NCBI GenBank assembly: GCA_005116885.1
Contig: SWDP01000034.1
Location: 177,988 to 222,763 of the forward strand
Length of the DNA stretch: 44,776 nucleotides
DNA from: Nitrospira sp.
Lineage (GTDB): Bacteria; Nitrospirota; Nitrospiria; Nitrospirales; Nitrospiraceae
Direction of reading: 5' to 3'
A program made the translations under genes and the position numbers. Numbering within the stretch: position 1 is the stretch's first letter; each line of letters opens with the position of its first letter. Under the pieces are notes generated by a model. It worked only from the letters and a program-made list of their open reading frames with translations. It searched no databases and was not told the DNA's origin. Positions 25,316 through 44,597 of the stretch are shown piece by piece.

Positions 25316-25585
25316 TCATCGCTTGAGAGATAAGATAGTTTGAAACAGCTCGTCCGCCACGACAATCAACCTCGAAGCCGCATCAAAACTCCGTTGATAT
25401 TGAAGGAGATTCGCCAGCTCTTCGTCCAACGATACCCCGGAGACGGCCGCACGATGAGAGGTTAATTGGGCATGAAGAATGTCTTGCGCCTTAAGATTCC
25501 CATCAGCCCCTTGTGCTGTCGAGCCGAAACTTCCGGCGATCGTGCTGTAATACTCTTGAAAGGTCACATTACCGAACGCCGATCG
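25316..25585 (-). pseudogene. flgK: C-terminal fragment of FlgK (hook-associated protein 1)
   Basis: The frame ending at 25316 encodes about 90 residues: [18 protein letters not shown], then SHRAAVSGVSLDEELANLLQ and SRLIVVADELFQTILSLKR. This is the standard FlgK C-terminus (VSGVNLDEE...ANL.QYQ...A..L....DELF..L). The frame is blocked upstream by a stop at 25588-25586 and has no proper start; a GTG at 25567 is fortuitous. About 400 N-terminal codons of a normal flgK are missing. The fragment begins exactly where flhA ends, and flgL follows as usual, so the order looks like the far side of a deletion or assembly collapse. Confidence 0.9.
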
Positions 25586-26249
25586 TCAACCCTCCGACGA
25601 TGTTCACAAGCACGATGATGATCGCCGCCATGGCGTCACCCCGAACAAACTTGCTGGCACCGTCCATAGAACCGTAGAAATCGGCTTCCTCTGCAATCTC
25701 GCGCCGCCGCCGTCTCGCTTCCGTCTCGTTGATCAGTCCGGCATTCAAGTCGGCGTCGATGCTCATCTGTTTACCCGGCATCGCATCCAACGTGAACCGA
25801 GCCGCGACTTCGGCGACTCGACCGGCGCCTTTGGTCACCACCACGAAGTTGATGACGACCAGGATAGAGAACACGACAAGCCCGACGGTGTAGTTCCCTC
25901 CCACGACAAAATTGCCGAATGCCCGAATCACCTCGCCTGCGGCGGCGGCGCCTTCATTGCCGTGAAGCAGAATCAGGCGTGTCGACGCAATGTTGAGCGC
26001 CAAGCGGAATAGCGTCACGATGAGAAGAATGGACGGAAAGGCCGAGAACTCGATCGGCCGTCGAACTTGCAGCCCCACGAGTAAGATGATCACGGACAGC
26101 GTAATATTGAACGCGAGCAAGAGATCGAGCAAAAACCGGGGAAGCGGCAGGATCATCAACATGATGATGCCCACCACGCCGAGCGAGAGGAGAATGTCCG
26201 GATGCTTAATGAACGACGATGGGGATAATTCTTTGGTGTCGGATGCCAT
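25569..26249 (-). pseudogene. flhA: FlhA, N-terminal third only (export gate protein)
   Basis: FlhA is the main membrane component of the flagellar export gate, usually about 690 residues. Here the 226 codons cover the N-terminal membrane part: [51 protein letters not shown] and the FHIPEP signature region [21 protein letters not shown]. The frame breaks off after [11 protein letters not shown] at the boundary with the flgK fragment. The remaining membrane helices and the whole cytoplasmic domain are absent, so the protein cannot work as an export gate. The start at ATG 26249 has AAGAGG upstream, 15 bases after flhB. Loss would abolish flagellar assembly if real. Confidence 0.92.
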
Positions 26250-29816: not shown

Positions 29817-30197
29817 TTACCCGAGTTGCTGAACGCGCTCGGCCGCGCTGATCACATCAGTGAGGCGGATACCGAATTTTTCGTTCACCACGACGACTTC
29901 GCCCCGTGCCACCAGCTTATTGTTGACCAACACTTCCATCGGTTCCCCAGCAAGCTTTTCGAGCTCAATCACCGACCCTTGCCCGAGCTGCAATAGCTCT
30001 CGAATCACCATCTTGGTCGACCCAACCTGCACCGTCACCTGCATCGGAATGTCCAGGATAAAGTCTATGTTCTTAGGGGCAGGGGTCGCTCCTCCTCCGT
30101 CAAGTGAAGGAAATGACGCCGGAGTAGGCGAAGGAGAAGAAGCGGGTGAAGGGCTGGGAGCATTCGCTCCAACATTCGCTACTTCGTTGTCAGCCAT
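29817..30197 (-). CDS. fliN: Flagellar motor switch protein FliN
   Basis: FliN forms the lower part of the C-ring. The 126 residues have a Pro/Ser/Ala-rich N-terminus (about 10-40) and a C-terminal SpoA domain: FILDIPMQVTVQVGSTKM, LLQLGQGSVIELEKLAGEPM and VVVVNEKFGIRLTDVIS. It lies 29 bases after fliM. Confidence 0.97.
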   Translation of the reverse strand: MADNEVANVGANAPSPSPASSPSPTPASFPSLDGGGATPAPKNIDFILDIPMQVTVQVGSTKMVIRELLQLGQGSVIELEKLAGEPMEVLVNNKLVARGEVVVVNEKFGIRLTDVISAAERVQQLG

Positions 30198-35470: not shown

Positions 35471-36259
35471 CTATGGAGTCGTGAGAAATTCTTCGCTCAA
35501 TTTAGCCGCGCGATCGACTTTGACCTGTGCCAAAATTGCTCCCGCCGACTTGCTCTTCAGGAGACGGAGAATCTCCAAGGCTTTCCGGTTGGTCATTCGC
35601 TCGATGCGCTCAGCGGCCTCCTCTGCAGGCATACTTTCATACATCTTAACGAGCTGTCCTAGTTGCTGCGTGCGTGTATCGACGGCGGGCTTCTCCGGTG
35701 AAGCCTGTTGAGCCACAGCGGATTTTTCTTTCGCAAGACGGCGCTGCTCTGAGGCCTCAACCTGGCTCAAGATCTGCTCCACTTCAGCCTTGAGAATCGC
35801 AAGCTTCGCCTCTGCCTCCCGAACCGAGTTTTCGCGTCGTTCCAAGTCCTGTTTCCGTTGCTGGAACATGGCAACCATTTCTTCTGGCACAGCGAGCGCT
35901 GGCCCTTGGACCGGTTCGGCTCCCGTCGTGGATGATTCGCCTCCCGCTTTCTTGATGTGATCGGCTGCCATCGACCTCGGCGAACCAGCTTCGACAGCCG
36001 CAGAAACCGGCAAGCCCGTCGAGGACCGCTGAGGATCCTGTCCTTGCTCAGCCGAGGCCTGGGGAACAAACACTATCGTCCAGGACAGCGCGATAATCAC
36101 ACCAAGCGCGGCAGCCGACAACCAACCGCTCCACCCAGAAAAATCCGCTCCCCTACTCTCATGACCCCAGGAACCGGTGTGATAATCTCGACGCTTTTGA
36201 GCGCCATGCCTGTGCCTAGCAGGCTGCGGAGAAAATATAGGTCTACCCCAGAATTTCAT
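35471..36259 (-). CDS. MotE-like (MgtE N-terminal-like) membrane-anchored coiled-coil protein
   Basis: Probable separate gene within the composite frame, starting at ATG 36259 (MKFWGRPIFS) with GGGAA upstream. It has a Lys/Arg/His-rich cytoplasmic N-terminus, a single membrane helix (LSAAALGVIIALSWTIVFV, about 50 residues in), a coiled coil (ENSVREAEAKLAILKAEVEQ) and a C-terminal domain containing VKMYESMPAEEAAERIERM and ALEILRLLKSKSAGAILAQV. The last part is typical of MotE proteins and MgtE N-domains. MotE in Helicobacter is a periplasmic partner of MotC, so a role around the stator or basal body is likely. The gene lies after fliJ, a common place. Confidence 0.7.
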   Translation of the reverse strand: MKFWGRPIFSPQPARHRHGAQKRRDYHTGSWGHESRGADFSGWSGWLSAAALGVIIALSWTIVFVPQASAEQGQDPQRSSTGLPVSAAVEAGSPRSMAADHIKKAGGESSTTGAEPVQGPALAVPEEMVAMFQQRKQDLERRENSVREAEAKLAILKAEVEQILSQVEASEQRRLAKEKSAVAQQASPEKPAVDTRTQQLGQLVKMYESMPAEEAAERIERMTNRKALEILRLLKSKSAGAILAQVKVDRAAKLSEEFLTTP

Positions 36260-36757
36260 AGATTTTCCCGTCTGAGGCAATAGGAGCACTCCTCGCAGGA
36301 TGATCAAAAAGGCCGTCCAGCAAGGCCGCAGGTGAATCGAAACCGGAGGCGTACCCTCTGGGGCGCACGGTGCGACGAATAAGGAGCACCACTGGAGACC
36401 ACGCTGTTGCTGCCGTATGCGTTCAGCCAGACGATCGAGGGTGCGCCGATCTTGCATGGCTTCTCGCAATTCATCCTGCTTCTGATCCCCTGCCTCACGG
36501 AGATGCCGTTCCATTTGCATTGCCGCCGACAGATTCGATACCTCGGCAGTCAGCATAGACTGCCGCACCAGGAATTCTTCCAACACGACCCCTCTACCAT
36601 CCTTCGGCAGATACGCATCTGCCGTGTGTTTCATCTGCGCTTCCAGGAGACGAGTGCGCGCTTCTGCATCCTGAAGCTCCTGCCGCAGACGAAACAGGTC
36701 CATCCGCACGACCTCTTCCATCTGCGCTCGGTACCGCCGCAACACATCAAGCTTCAT
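35471..36757 (-). CDS. fliJ: Composite frame: FliJ N-terminal part joined to MotE-like protein
   Basis: One open frame of 428 codons, starting at ATG 36757 (overlapping the fliI stop as ATGA). Residues 1-121 are a FliJ-type coiled coil (MKLDVLRRYRAQMEEVVRMD...TLDRLAERIRQQQR), the soluble export chaperone that links FliI and FlhA. Residues about 122-205 read WCSLFVAPCAPEGTPPVSIH and similar, rich in Cys, Trp and His, unlike coding sequence. The rest is a MotE-like protein with a membrane anchor. In a shifted frame the FliJ part would continue for about 50 codons (VVLLIRRTVRPRGYASGF...) to a TAG at 36243, overlapping an internal ATG at 36259. So this may be two genes with a frameshift near 36390-36410, or a real fusion. 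Confidence 0.75.
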   Translation of the reverse strand: MKLDVLRRYRAQMEEVVRMDLFRLRQELQDAEARTRLLEAQMKHTADAYLPKDGRGVVLEEFLVRQSMLTAEVSNLSAAMQMERHLREAGDQKQDELREAMQDRRTLDRLAERIRQQQRGLQWCSLFVAPCAPEGTPPVSIHLRPCWTAFLIILRGVLLLPQTGKSMKFWGRPIFSPQPARHRHGAQKRRDYHTGSWGHESRGADFSGWSGWLSAAALGVIIALSWTIVFVPQASAEQGQDPQRSSTGLPVSAAVEAGSPRSMAADHIKKAGGESSTTGAEPVQGPALAVPEEMVAMFQQRKQDLERRENSVREAEAKLAILKAEVEQILSQVEASEQRRLAKEKSAVAQQASPEKPAVDTRTQQLGQLVKMYESMPAEEAAERIERMTNRKALEILRLLKSKSAGAILAQVKVDRAAKLSEEFLTTP

Positions 36758-38061
36758 CCTATCGACTTCATCAGAGCGAGCAAGTCTTGAACCGAGGCGC
36801 CCATGGACACGGATTGCTCAATATCCTGACGAAGAAACGCATTGATCCCATCTTGAGCCCTTACGGCTTTGTCGAGGTCGCCATTGGTGCCGGCCTTATA
36901 GGCTCCAAGCAGAATGAGATCCTCAGATTGTTGGTACCGTGCTTGGAGCTCGATCATGGACCTGATCGCGGCATAGTGATCCCGCCCCACGATATCTTTC
37001 ATGACGCGGCTAGTGCTGTTCAGGAGATCGATTGCCGGGAAATGGTTGCGCGCGGCCAACTGCTTCGAGAGCACAATGTGGCCATCCAGGATCGACCGGA
37101 CCGATTCCGCGATGGGATCGGAGAGTTCTTCACTCTCCATGAGCACAGTATAGAGCCCCGTAATCGCGCCAGAACCGGAACTGGTCCCGACTCGTTCCAA
37201 CAGCTTGGGCAACATGGTAAAGACGGAGGGAGTATACCCCTTTGTGGTCGGCGGCTCACCGATCGCGAGTCCGACTTCGCGTTGGCTATGGGCCAAGCGG
37301 GTCAGTGAATCCATCATTAGAAGCACCTGCCTGCCGCAGTCACGAAAGTACTCTGCAATCGTCGTCGCAATGAAGGCACCGCGTAATCGTACTAAGGGTG
37401 GCTGGTCCGACGTCGCCACAATGACCACCGAGCGGCTGAGCGCCTCGGGGGTCAAATCGCGCTCGAGGAATTCGTTGACTTCACGTCCTCGTTCGCCAAT
37501 GAGGGCAATGACGTTCACGTCGGCTTTGGTGTAGCGGCTGATCATCCCAAGTAATACACTTTTCCCGACACCGGAGCTGGCAAAAATGCCGACCTTCTGT
37601 CCACGACCGCATGTCAGGCAGGCATTGATCGCCCGGATACCCAGATCGAGCGGCTGCGCAATACGCGCTCGTTTCAAAGGATTGATCGGCGCGGCATGCA
37701 ACGGATATCGCTGTTCGGTCATGAGAGAACCGCGCCCATCCAATGGCTCACCTAGTCCATTGAGCACACGACCGAGCAGCTGCGGGCCGACCGAGACCGA
37801 CGCGCAATGCCCCCGCATAAGCAACCGGCTGCCGGGACCGATCCCCCGCATTTCACCGAGCGGCATCAACAGCACACGGTCCCCACGAAACCCCACCACT
37901 TCAGCCGGTACGGTTCCCTCTCCATCCTCACGCGTGACGTCGCACAGCTCTCCGACCGATGTCATGGGGCCATAGCCTTCGATCACAATCCCCACGGCCT
38001 GCGCCACACGGCCTGAGACCACCAGCGGATCTGTCCGTTCAATGAGATCAACGAGATTCAC
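36754..38061 (-). CDS. fliI: Flagellar export ATPase FliI
   Basis: FliI energises export of rod, hook and filament proteins. The 435-residue product has Walker A FASSGVGKSVLLGMI (about 160-174), IALIGERGREVNEF, Walker B RQVLLMMDSLTRLAHSQREV and PTTKGYTPSVFTMLP. Length is normal. I take the GTG at 38061 (VNLVDLIERTD), with GAGG upstream, overlapping fliH by 14 bases. The frame stays open to 38124, but this lies inside fliH and lacks the conserved N-terminus. Confidence 0.96.
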   Translation of the reverse strand: MNLVDLIERTDPLVVSGRVAQAVGIVIEGYGPMTSVGELCDVTREDGEGTVPAEVVGFRGDRVLLMPLGEMRGIGPGSRLLMRGHCASVSVGPQLLGRVLNGLGEPLDGRGSLMTEQRYPLHAAPINPLKRARIAQPLDLGIRAINACLTCGRGQKVGIFASSGVGKSVLLGMISRYTKADVNVIALIGERGREVNEFLERDLTPEALSRSVVIVATSDQPPLVRLRGAFIATTIAEYFRDCGRQVLLMMDSLTRLAHSQREVGLAIGEPPTTKGYTPSVFTMLPKLLERVGTSSGSGAITGLYTVLMESEELSDPIAESVRSILDGHIVLSKQLAARNHFPAIDLLNSTSRVMKDIVGRDHYAAIRSMIELQARYQQSEDLILLGAYKAGTNGDLDKAVRAQDGINAFLRQDIEQSVSMGASVQDLLALMKSIG

Positions 38062-39097
38062 GGCGGCCTCGCTTCTGTAACACCTCTCCAAGCCGCAGCA
38101 ATTGCTGGTCCAGCGAAGCATCAATCAGTCGATTTGTAGTTTGAACAAGACAACTCCCCCGGGAGAGCGATGAATCGCCTTCGACATGCATCGCAAATGC
38201 CGGGGGCCGGTCTCGACACAACTCCGCACGAGCCGCCTCGAGGACCTGGACATCGGAGGGATGTGTTCGCACGGTGACAACCCCCGCCTCACGAACCGTG
38301 GCCAAAGCCGACTTTAACAAGGCGATTACCACATCCTGCCGTTCCATCACCGTCTCGCGTAGAATACGTGTCGCTAAACTGAGCGCCAGTGCCGTCACGT
38401 CATCTTCGATGGTCTGATGCAACGATGCCCGCGTGTCATCGAAGCGCCGAACGGCGTTGGCCAAAAGCGTCTGCTCCTGTTGCCTGACTGCCGCGACTCG
38501 TGCGCCGGCTCGCCGCTCACCCTCCGCAATGCCTTGATCGTAGTCCGAGGGGCCCTGGTCGCCGATAAACCGATCGCCGGTACCAAAGTCGGTCAGCGCA
38601 AGACTCCGGCAGCGAACCCCGGAGGCGCGAATCACTGCCTGCTTGAGGACCGTATTTTCAGAACGCAGGTGATACAGGTCAAGGAGACGATTCACCACCA
38701 ACTGTAACGCATCGTTTTCGAACGGCTTCATCAGAAATTCTGCCGCTCCTGCCTTCATCGCCTGAATTGCGAGATCCACCGTGCCGTACCCGGTCATCAC
38801 CAGCCCCATCATGCGGTGATCGAGCTCACAGGCTTGTTGAAGCAACGCGATGCCGTCTTGATCCGGCAATTTGACGTCGGTGATCAGGAGCGAAACAGGA
38901 GACTTTTTTAACGCCGCATGGGCTTCCCGTGCAGACCCAACCGCACGCACACGATGCCCTGCCGACTGCAGCAGCTTCATCAATAGTTCCCGGATCGCCT
39001 CCTCATCGTCAACGACAAGAATTGAACTATCTCGTTGACCGCTGCGACTGACGGATGGCTGGGCGAGTGTCGCCTGGCCGTGTAAAGCCCGTTCCAT
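38048..39097 (-). CDS. fliH: FliH with an N-terminal response-regulator receiver domain
   Basis: A single uninterrupted 349-codon frame. Residues 25-130 are a complete receiver domain of the NtrC/AtoC kind: acidic pair D30-D31 (ILVVDDEEAIREL), phospho-acceptor D74 (LLITDVKLPDQDG), T102 (VMTGYGT) and K124 (FLMKPFEND). Residues about 185-349 are FliH: a short GxxxG-type segment (GIAEGERRAG), LALSLATRILRETV, VTVRTHPSDVQVLE and SCLVQTTNRLIDASLDQQLL, the usual C-terminal FliI-binding domain. FliH normally restrains FliI and tethers it to the C-ring through its N-terminus; here that end is replaced by the receiver. It lies in the normal place between fliG and fliI, with tight spacing. Phosphorylation control of export is an inference. 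Confidence 0.93.
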   Translation of the reverse strand: MERALHGQATLAQPSVSRSGQRDSSILVVDDEEAIRELLMKLLQSAGHRVRAVGSAREAHAALKKSPVSLLITDVKLPDQDGIALLQQACELDHRMMGLVMTGYGTVDLAIQAMKAGAAEFLMKPFENDALQLVVNRLLDLYHLRSENTVLKQAVIRASGVRCRSLALTDFGTGDRFIGDQGPSDYDQGIAEGERRAGARVAAVRQQEQTLLANAVRRFDDTRASLHQTIEDDVTALALSLATRILRETVMERQDVVIALLKSALATVREAGVVTVRTHPSDVQVLEAARAELCRDRPPAFAMHVEGDSSLSRGSCLVQTTNRLIDASLDQQLLRLGEVLQKRGRRESR

Positions 39098-40090
39098 TTA
39101 CAGTACCGCCTCCGCTCCACCGGCAATGACGATCCGCCCTTCCTCTTCCAGCTTTCGGCAGACTTTGAGGATATTTTGTTGTGCCTTCTCGACTTCTGCC
39201 ACCTTCACCGGGCCTCTCGATTCCATGTCGTCTTTCAACATTTCCGCCGCTCGACTCGACATATTTTTCAGGAACTTATCCCTGGTTTCAGGACTTGCTC
39301 CTCGCAATGCCACAGGAAGATCCTCTTTACTGACTTCTTTCATCAGTTCTTGCATACCACGGTCATCCAGCTTAATGAGGTCGTCGAAGACGAACATCAA
39401 TCCACGGATCGTATCGGCCAATAGCTGATCGCGTTCGGCGATTTTTGACAGGATGCCTCCCTCAGTGGCTTTGTCGAGGGTCGTCAGAATATCGGCAATC
39501 GCTTCAGCACCTCCGACGCTTGTTGCACGAGTGCCGGTACTCGCGCCGAGTGAACTCTGCAACGCGTCACTCAGTTCCTCAAGCACGCTTGGCTGCAAGT
39601 CTTCCATGGTGGCGAGGCGCAAGGCGACATCCGTTCGAAGAGCTTCTGGTAAATCGGCCATGACTACGCCGGCCTGATCCGGTTCCATGTGCGCCAAGAT
39701 CACGGAGATCGTCTGGGGATGTTCGGTCCTAATCATGGCTGAGACGGCCTTGGCATCCACCCATTTCATCGCATCGAGTCCCGGATACACCTTGGTGGTC
39801 ATGGACTCGAGCATACGGTGTGCTTTTTCAGGACCGAGCGCCTTGGATAGAATAGTTTTGATATATTCGCTTCCGCGAAAGGTTACCTGACCAGTGGCAC
39901 TGGCCTTCTCAAATTCATCGATGACGATCGATTCCTCATCTCTGGTAAAATTTGCCGTCGCATGCATGGAGGCCCCCAATCGGCGAATCTCCTTCGGGTC
40001 AAGGCCCTTCATCACCAACGCAGCAGCCTCTTCTCCAATAGCTTTCAGGAGAATGGCCGCCTTTTGCTCGCCGCTCAGTTGGGTGGCCAT
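39098..40090 (-). CDS. fliG: Flagellar motor switch protein FliG
   Basis: FliG links the MS-ring to the stators. The 330-residue product has the N-terminal domain (SGEQKAAILLKAIGEEAAAL), the middle-domain EHPQT motif (IRTEHPQTISVILAHMEPDQ) and a C-terminal torque helix (LFVFDD-type GLMFVFDDLIKLDDRGMQ) with the charged residues. Length is normal. The stop is directly followed by the fliH start. Confidence 0.97.
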   Translation of the reverse strand: MATQLSGEQKAAILLKAIGEEAAALVMKGLDPKEIRRLGASMHATANFTRDEESIVIDEFEKASATGQVTFRGSEYIKTILSKALGPEKAHRMLESMTTKVYPGLDAMKWVDAKAVSAMIRTEHPQTISVILAHMEPDQAGVVMADLPEALRTDVALRLATMEDLQPSVLEELSDALQSSLGASTGTRATSVGGAEAIADILTTLDKATEGGILSKIAERDQLLADTIRGLMFVFDDLIKLDDRGMQELMKEVSKEDLPVALRGASPETRDKFLKNMSSRAAEMLKDDMESRGPVKVAEVEKAQQNILKVCRKLEEEGRIVIAGGAEAVL

Positions 40091-43190: not shown

Positions 43191-44597
43191 TCATGCAGAA
43201 GCCCGGCAATTGGTCTCCCGATACTCTCGAAGCTTGTTCCGCAACGTGCGAATACTGATGCCTAATTCCTTCGCCGCATGAGTGCGATTCTCCCTCACTC
43301 GCGCCAGAGTTTGAAATATCAAGTCCCGTTCCATTTCCCACAGCGACCCATTGCCGGACGGTTGTGACACCGTTGAGATTGCGGCAGGGATCACCGGCTG
43401 GCTACCGGACTCCAGTAACACGTGGCCTGGAAGGATCGGGCCATTTCCGGCCAACAGCACAGCACGCTCCACGACGTTCTCCAGTTCGCGCACGTTTCCT
43501 TTCCATCGTCTCTCCTGAAGCATCGCATATGTCTCCGCCGACACCATCGGTACCGGGAGCCCATTGCGCGCGGCAGAGGCCGTCACGAAATGTCTTGCGA
43601 GCAACGAAATATCGGCGGGCCTCTCCCGCAACGGAGGCACGGTGATAGGAAACACATTCAAACGATAATACAAGTCTTCCCGAAACCGCCCCTGTTCCAC
43701 TTCGTGGTAGAGCGACCGGTTTGTCGTGGCAATGACCCGAATGTTGACTGAGATAGGTTCTCGGCCTCCCACTCGATCCACCTCTCGCTCCTGAATCACA
43801 CGGAGCAACTTGGCCTGTAAACCCATGTTCATTTCGCTAATTTCATCCAGAAGCAACGTGCCGGTATGGGCCATCTCGAACTTGCCGATTTTCTTCATGA
43901 TGGCTCCGGTAAACGCTCCCCGTTCATGACCAAACAACTCGCTTTCCAGAAGCCCGTCCGGCAACGCCGCGCAATTCACCGCGATAAAGGGACGGTGGGC
44001 ACGAGGGCTTCTGCTATGGATGAAACGGGCCAGCAATTCTTTTCCGGTGCCGCTTTCTCCATTGATGAGAACAGTCGCCTGACTTGCGGCAACCCCCTCA
44101 ACCGTACTGAGCAGACGGACCATGCCCGGGTCTTGCGTCAGAATAGACCGCTGATCGATCGGCTCAGATGGCAGCGGTGAGGCATCCACGTCGCGGGCTT
44201 TCAGATTGGCAATCACCCGTTCAAGCAAATCGGTGGAAAACGGTTTGAGAATATAGTCGCTCGCGCCGTATTTCATCGCCTCCACGGCTGTCTCCACGGT
44301 CCCGTATGCGGTCATCAACACCATCAATGTGTGCGGCGAACGGCCTTTGATCTCTTTGATCAGATCCAGCCCGCCAAGACGCGGCATCTTCAGATCGGTC
44401 ACCACCAACCAGGGCTTGTAGCGACCGACACGTTCCACGGCCTCGACGCCATCGATCGCACCTTGCACGTCAAAGCCCAAACGACGGACAGACTCCATGA
44501 GAGCGGTCCTCATGGATGCATCGTCATCGACGATCAACACTCGCTCGGCTTGCTCAGGAATATCCGACGCATGACCTCCTGTGTCCTGTTCGCTCAT
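43191..44597 (-). CDS. Sigma-54-dependent flagellar response regulator (FlrC/FleR-like)
   Basis: An NtrC-family activator, probably the one that opens the sigma-54 promoters of this cluster. Residues 18-135 are a receiver domain (DDD 24-26, acceptor D68, T96, K118). The AAA+ domain has Walker A GESGTGKE (180-187), GAFTGA (227-232), the sigma-54 contact loop, Walker B LLLDEISEM, and RVIATTNRSL. The C-terminal Fis-type helix-turn-helix includes RENRTHAAKELGISIRTLRN. Length (468 aa) is typical. The start overlaps the upstream kinase stop (ATGA). Its receiver resembles the one fused to FliH (MTxYGTVxxAxxAMKxGAxxxxxKPF). Confidence 0.94.
   Translation of the reverse strand: MSEQDTGGHASDIPEQAERVLIVDDDASMRTALMESVRRLGFDVQGAIDGVEAVERVGRYKPWLVVTDLKMPRLGGLDLIKEIKGRSPHTLMVLMTAYGTVETAVEAMKYGASDYILKPFSTDLLERVIANLKARDVDASPLPSEPIDQRSILTQDPGMVRLLSTVEGVAASQATVLINGESGTGKELLARFIHSRSPRAHRPFIAVNCAALPDGLLESELFGHERGAFTGAIMKKIGKFEMAHTGTLLLDEISEMNMGLQAKLLRVIQEREVDRVGGREPISVNIRVIATTNRSLYHEVEQGRFREDLYYRLNVFPITVPPLRERPADISLLARHFVTASAARNGLPVPMVSAETYAMLQERRWKGNVRELENVVERAVLLAGNGPILPGHVLLESGSQPVIPAAISTVSQPSGNGSLWEMERDLIFQTLARVRENRTHAAKELGISIRTLRNKLREYRETNCRASA

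Follow-up and report, generated by a model that had tools for sequence, protein, structure and literature searches.

The 44,776-nucleotide stretch of the Nitrospira sp. contig SWDP01000034.1 analysed here (hereafter the window, meaning the whole stretch) contains, at positions 38048..39097 of the (-) strand, a flagellar gene named rr-fliH. The product of this gene, RR-FliH, carries a complete response-regulator receiver domain and a linker helix in front of what is probably an essentially whole FliH, the partner of the export ATPase FliI. Within a sample of 395 Nitrospirota genomes, drawn from a larger group, RR-FliH is a Nitrospiraceae-specific form of FliH. The phospho-acceptor of the receiver, whose ancestry appears to be FleQ-like, is present in all the fusions aligned, and a probability of about 0.45 is given to the reading that the receiver acts as a phosphorylation-dependent head on the FliH stalk, tuning docking or export.

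A receiver domain in front of FliH and its distribution

The rr-fliH frame starts with an ATG immediately past the fliG stop, encodes 349 amino acids (the coordinates include the stop codon) and contains no internal stop. Two Pfam domains were detected in the protein: Response_reg at residues 26-134 (E-value 3.6e-24; 85.5 bits, cut-off 30.2) and FliH (PF02108) at residues 207-334 (38096..38479, (-) strand; E-value 3.4e-18; 66.3 bits, cut-off 24.1). The receiver domain was delimited to residues 25-140 (38678..39025, (-) strand) from the Pfam match and the AlphaFold fold. Neither a sigma-54 AAA+ domain nor a helix-turn-helix (HTH) was found after the receiver, since Pfam shows Response_reg and FliH only; the likeness of RR-FliH to NtrC is confined to its receiver. 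Two NCBIfam FliH models match the protein far under their curated cut-offs (63.7 versus 180 and 54.9 versus 148.9), and no model spanning both the receiver and FliH was present among the best 25 of 95 NCBIfam matches. The original prediction had described an uninterrupted frame at the normal fliH place and a complete receiver with D30, D31, D74, T102 and K124. Both points were confirmed, the open reading frame lying between fliG and fliI and the five residues occupying those positions in the window protein.

A single-chain AlphaFold model was built from an alignment of 59 sequences. The mean predicted local distance difference test score (pLDDT) was 80.9, with a predicted template modelling score of 0.43 that leaves the mutual placing of the parts undefined. 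In the model, a confidently predicted receiver (residues 25-123) is followed by a helix (128-158) and then, after a stretch of low confidence, by a long helix (185-252) and the FliH C-terminal part. According to this model and to Foldseek, the receiver is predicted to adopt the (beta-alpha)5 fold: the 50 PDB matches listed were all receivers or receiver-bearing proteins, including NtrX, NtrC1, FleR and DctD, and the best PDB matches of the receiver by sequence were DctD, FleR and NtrC1, not CheY. The extended alpha-5 or linker helix (residues 128-158; 38624..38716, (-) strand) is predicted as one helix. It is followed by a probably flexible tether (residues 159-184; 38546..38623, (-) strand), with pLDDT below 50 at residues 160-180, and by the predicted long helix (residues 185-252; 38342..38545, (-) strand), which forms a dimeric stalk in known FliH and in which G189 is present in 79 of 79 fusions and G193 in 78 of 79.

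In order to establish how widespread this architecture is, as the original prediction had proposed, the phylum sample was scanned with a profile of the whole fusion, five candidates being scored per genome. FliH is present in 218 of the 395 genomes, 87 of them in Nitrospiraceae and 131 outside (counted from the table). By our own counts, a full-length fusion match was obtained in 84 of the 87 Nitrospiraceae genomes, and the 131 others gave none; the three remaining Nitrospiraceae genomes (G119, G256 and G192) carry FliH without a receiver. Sequences were examined for 83 Nitrospiraceae members, with a receiver in 80 and none in 3, and 16 further members are represented by full-length profile matches alone. 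Outside the family, the frames around FliH measured 170-313 amino acids among the 71 rows listed, and the two longest of these (313 and 294 amino acids) have no receiver. Seven outside genomes match the fusion profile at E-values of 1e-41 to 1e-43, but these are not fusions, because four have FliH frames of only 202-243 amino acids and three have no FliH match.

Closer relatives gave the same result. Of 61 sampled genomes, 29 have FliH, and 22 of the 29 belong to the genus (our own included). The receiver was found in 22 of 22, one of which is truncated at the end of its contig. A scan of contigs, the patterns of which reach close relatives only (best 80 of 250 relatives), gave ten matches extending beyond the receiver, nine over residues 1-349 and one over residues 1-301 on a short contig, all bearing Nitrospira, Nitrospiraceae or Nitrospirae titles. 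Seven records match residues 1-349 at 82-92% (best segment).

The original prediction had also considered that related genomes might encode separate adjacent response-regulator and fliH genes. This arrangement was rejected: no stand-alone response regulator gene was found beside the plain fliH over about 18 kb in G119, G192, G050 and G286, where the receivers near fliH are those of the cluster's two NtrC-type regulators. Synthesis of two isoforms through a conserved internal start was rejected as well, since a possible start codon occurs at three positions in more than 40% of the 79 fusions and none of them is preceded by a ribosome-site-like sequence.

Ancestry and conservation of the receiver

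The flagellar cluster holds two NtrC-type regulators, one FleQ-like at its head (L166:4299-5708), with a sigma-54 AAA+ domain and an HTH, and one FleR/FlrC-like inside the window (43191..44597, (-) strand; identified by Pfam). The original prediction had likened the FliH receiver to that of the FlrC-like regulator and suggested a tree of both. This likeness was not borne out. In a tree of 68 receivers (135 columns; many forks unresolved and long branches flagged), the 17 FliH receivers cluster in a single clade (99/96), which joins the FleQ-like receivers (97/70), and the FleR-like receivers fall in a separate group (98/79). A tree holding the FleQ-like receivers together, apart from the FliH receivers, was not rejected (p-value of the AU test 0.158). 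When the receivers of our own genome were ranked, the FleQ-like receiver, which lies outside the window, was the best match after self (43%, E-value 2.5e-34), and the FleR/FlrC-like receiver of the window was tenth (32%, E-value 1.8e-16). Hence, the FlrC/FleR-like regulator was rejected as the source of the receiver. Among the second matches listed per genome, the usual one was a receiver on the contig that carries fliH, about 11 kb away from it, at the place of the FleQ-like gene.

In a tree of FliG, FliI and FliF from 21 genomes, a single branch (89/89; recovered in 90% of 200 bootstrap trees) separates the 17 fused genomes from the others. The plain G119 and G192 are the neighbours of the fused genomes, and the tree requires one change between plain and fused. 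The trees thus support a single origin of the fusion and a FleQ-like ancestry of the FliH receiver. The simplest history would be one duplication of the FleQ-like receiver onto FliH, with vertical descent thereafter.

Conservation was analysed in 79 of the 80 receiver-bearing fusions, the contig-cut G022 being dropped. The phospho-acceptor D74 (38876..38878, (-) strand) and the conserved lysine K124 (38726..38728, (-) strand) are present in 79/79. The switch threonine T102 (38792..38794, (-) strand) is kept in 77 fusions, with S in the other 2. In the acidic pair D31-D30 (39005..39010, (-) strand), D30 is retained in 77 and replaced by E in 2, and D31 is retained in 68 and replaced by A in 9, by G in 1 and by H in 1. 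Ten of 117 columns are fully invariant in the receiver (D74, K124 and P125 among them) and 13 of 200 in the later part of the protein. The median ratio of non-synonymous to synonymous substitution rates (dN/dS) among 21 genus members was 0.10 for the receiver, 0.11 for the linker and 0.13 for the FliH part, using 111, 94 and 104 pairs, respectively, with dS between 0.1 and 1.2. As this ratio is no higher for the receiver than for the FliH part, the receiver appears to be under selection as strong as that on its host protein, with the phospho-site kept.

The fusions without D31 (D31 replaced by A, H or G) are L148, L149, L150, L154, L174, L176, L183, L188, L201 and L204 (genus g6) and L092 (g3). 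These 11 proteins keep D74, T/S102 and K124, and constitute a natural test set for the importance of phosphorylation.

One important question is whether the receiver took the place of the N-terminal part of FliH that tethers it to the C-ring, as had been originally proposed. When residues 130-349 of the fused proteins were compared with 33 plain FliH proteins by profile, the alignment started at residue 146, so that the plain FliH N-terminus seems to have a counterpart past the receiver. Position 168 is L or F in 79/79, F171 is present in 77/79 and R145, in the linker helix, in 79/79. In Salmonella FliH, residues W7 and W10 are directly involved in the binding of FliN and FlhA (PMC9114704). 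It is therefore likely, on weak support from the sequences, that a FliH-type N-terminal docking peptide has been retained in the tether between the receiver and the long helix, and the receiver would then have been added to the N-terminus rather than substituted for it. Segment 141-183 alone scored 14.3 against the plain N-termini (maximum of 100 column shuffles 13.1, mean 7.5).

Possible phosphorylation control of docking or export

The reading to which a probability of about 0.45 was given involves the following steps. The fusion would have arisen on the stem leading to most of the flagellated Nitrospiraceae, once the plain-FliH lineages had split off, when a copy of the receiver and linker helix of the FleQ-like regulator was placed before FliH. 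D74 would be phosphorylated by a histidine kinase, which may be the one acting on the FleQ-like regulator, and phosphorylation would alter the dimer state of both receivers and their linker helices; in receivers of the DctD/NtrC1 type, phosphorylation changes the dimer state. Phospho-dependent pairing of the heads is suggested because the receiver and linker helix adjoin a flexible peptide located before the stalk. In the FliH dimer, this change might tighten or free the neighbouring docking peptide, and the FliH-FliI complex would thus dock at FliN/FlhA, or restrain FliI, according to the signal. The wider proposal, that the type III export ATPase complex is under direct two-component control through a receiver duplicated from a flagellar master regulator and that one phospho-signal could set both expression and, post-translationally, docking or activity across most of Nitrospiraceae, is more tentative, and we would sooner doubt it than accept it.

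Several results weigh against phosphorylation control. D31, which we take to be a direct Mg2+ ligand as in CheY-type receivers, is missing in 11 of the 79 fusions, where phosphorylation may be weak or lost; among the sequence data, it is chiefly these losses that speak against phosphorylation in every member. No kinase for RR-FliH was identified in this analysis. The match of segment 141-183 to the plain N-termini is weak (hhalign probability 2.9%), and the receiver, used as an unrelated control, scored 11.5. For export in Salmonella, FliH-FliI is not essential (PMC5789064). In addition, our own strain, as assembled, may not build flagella, with flhA cut and the end of fliJ altered.

The kinase interface was assessed at 16 positions that presumably contact the kinase, following work on Spo0F. 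Among themselves, the FliH receivers are 0.54 identical at these positions and 0.53 over the whole domain, unlike the FleR-like receivers (0.86 and 0.71), so that strict conservation of a kinase interface is not apparent in the FliH receivers, a further point against the reading. Within the same genome, the FliH receiver was 0.52 identical to the FleQ-like receiver and 0.33 to the FleR-like receiver at the contact positions, compared with 0.42 and 0.31 over the whole domain (117 columns). Because these figures follow the whole-domain identities, likeness at the contact positions seems mostly to mirror ancestry; for the same reason, the contact positions do not amount to proof of a shared kinase. 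The original prediction that one kinase could control both the FlrC-like regulator and the FliH receiver finds no backing here, as the receiver groups with that of the FleQ-like regulator. At the contact positions it also differs from the FlrC-like receivers, but by no more than over the whole domain.

The main rival explanation is a feedback node, in which the receiver carried by FliH would act as decoy or sensor towards the kinase of the FleQ-like regulator. At the C-ring, it would compete for phosphate or pair with the FleQ-like receiver, reporting the assembly of the export apparatus to transcription. The grouping of the FliH receiver with the FleQ-like regulator's own receiver and its greater nearness to it at the contact positions agree with this explanation, as does a precedent in Campylobacter and Helicobacter, where RpoN-dependent flagellar genes respond to formation of the export apparatus via FlgSR (PMC3930126). 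However, the contact figures follow the whole domain, and the same-genome identity of 0.52 to the FleQ-like receiver compares with 0.48 across genomes, giving no clear co-evolution. The lack of an identified kinase counts here too, and the place of the FliH clade among the FleQ-like receivers is not firm (97/70; p-AU 0.158). We regard this explanation as unlikely, though still a serious competitor.

A structural role, in which the receiver serves FliH for dimerisation or partner binding and phosphorylation is of little account, is a poorer prospect. The domain has been kept despite the loss of D31 in 11 fusions and the change of D30 to E in two, and the invariant R145 together with the predicted linker helix suggests a dimer element. 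Nevertheless, D74 and K124 are kept in all 79 fusions and T or S at position 102 likewise, whereas D74 would be expected to drift in a purely structural receiver, as in Pseudomonas FleQ.

Input to the motor, through a chemotaxis or other kinase that phosphorylates the head and alters the stalk or C-ring (switching, speed) instead of export, was considered improbable. FliH binds the C-ring protein FliN (PMC9114704) and CheY-P, itself a receiver, acts on the same ring (PMC7911332), but the FliH receiver groups with the NtrC type and its best sequence matches in the PDB do not include CheY. Finally, an artefact of our own metagenome-assembled genome (MAG), with two genes joined through misassembly or chance read-through, for which two further irregular joins at this locus (flhA and fliJ) might speak, was rejected as having a negligible probability, given the full-length fusion in 84 Nitrospiraceae genomes, some of them single-contig (e.g. 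G164 and G114), and the absence of any common internal start, preceded by a ribosome-site-like sequence, from which a separate FliH could be made.

Neighbouring genes and comparison with known systems

By Pfam, fliF and fliG lie upstream of rr-fliH and fliI downstream. The directly adjacent fliG (39098..40090, (-) strand) shows the FliG_N/M/C domains. The export ATPase gene fliI (36754..38061, (-) strand; ATP-synt_ab and T3SS_ATPase_C) has a candidate GTG start, our preferred choice, with which it probably overlaps the end of rr-fliH. The gene of the expected docking partner, fliN (FliMN_C), is located at 29817..30197 of the (-) strand; the partner role comes from the Salmonella literature cited above. 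The frame after fliI was assigned to fliJ by place only, a FliJ Pfam match being absent. One FliH match was obtained in our own genome, G000, a MAG that is 84% complete.

The locus shows two anomalies in this assembly. The flhA frame (window positions 25569-26249) ends after about 200 of 657 profile positions, with a join at 25574-25576, and it is the only FlhA match in our own MAG. Ten flhA frames of genus members measure 702-712 amino acids, and two more are shorter pieces of 562 and 102 amino acids. About 13 kb of G005, containing the rest of flhA and the following genes, are missing in our MAG at a 3-base overlap, by deletion or through a misjoin. The frame in the place of fliJ (window positions 35471-36757) runs into the next gene (an MgtE_N-like C-terminal part), giving 428 amino acids. 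In G005, G027 and G028 a stop separates the two, and about 100 bases of G027 and G028 are missing here. Either the strain is losing its flagella or the MAG is misjoined, and the case for RR-FliH therefore rests on the relatives.

A PAS-HisKA kinase (L166:655-1878, partly masked) lies just upstream of the FleR/FlrC-like gene. Runs of N mask parts of it and of other L166 frames, and its ATPase domain is unreadable. The FleQ-like regulator keeps an intact phospho-acceptor pattern, in contrast to Pseudomonas FleQ. Homologues of FleQ and FleSR have been reported in Nitrospira ND1 and N. defluvii (PMC5767232), and these would correspond to the genes of this cluster.

No receiver-FliH fusion is described in the titles or abstract openings of the literature searched, the coverage of which is partial, with subscription papers mostly outside it; nor was the name FliH found in PMC4558063. 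RR-FliH would be new as a form of FliH, and under the regulatory reading the type III export ATPase would be controlled in a way that is new in kind. Gene expression, FliK/FlhB switching and the proton motive force are the controls usually described for flagellar export; if phosphorylation control is true, RR-FliH would add a direct post-translational two-component input to this machine. The many fusions, the members without D31 and the plain sister lineages make comparative testing feasible. Nitrospira are among the main nitrifiers, and what decides between their motile and aggregated life seems to be little known.

RR-FliH shares with the FliH family (PF02108) the place between fliG and fliI, the Pfam domain, the GxxxG region, the long helix and the C-terminal part, and differs from it by the complete receiver and linker helix in front. 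With the FleQ-like regulator it has in common the receiver and linker (by the tree and the best non-self match), but not the sigma-54 AAA+ domain and HTH that the regulator possesses. As in FleSR and FlrBC, a PAS-HisKA kinase and an NtrC-type regulator stand together in the cluster; however, because the FleR-like receivers form a separate group from RR-FliH, there is no evidence that the FleS-like kinase serves it. Another system with a signalling domain built into a protein of the flagellar base is FliY, which is FliN fused to a CheC-like phosphatase; there the domain is a phosphatase rather than a receiver, and the protein is a different one. The FlgSR system of Campylobacter and Helicobacter likewise couples two-component signalling to the flagellar export apparatus (PMC3930126), but its signal runs from the apparatus to the kinase, whereas in RR-FliH the receiver is itself part of the apparatus.

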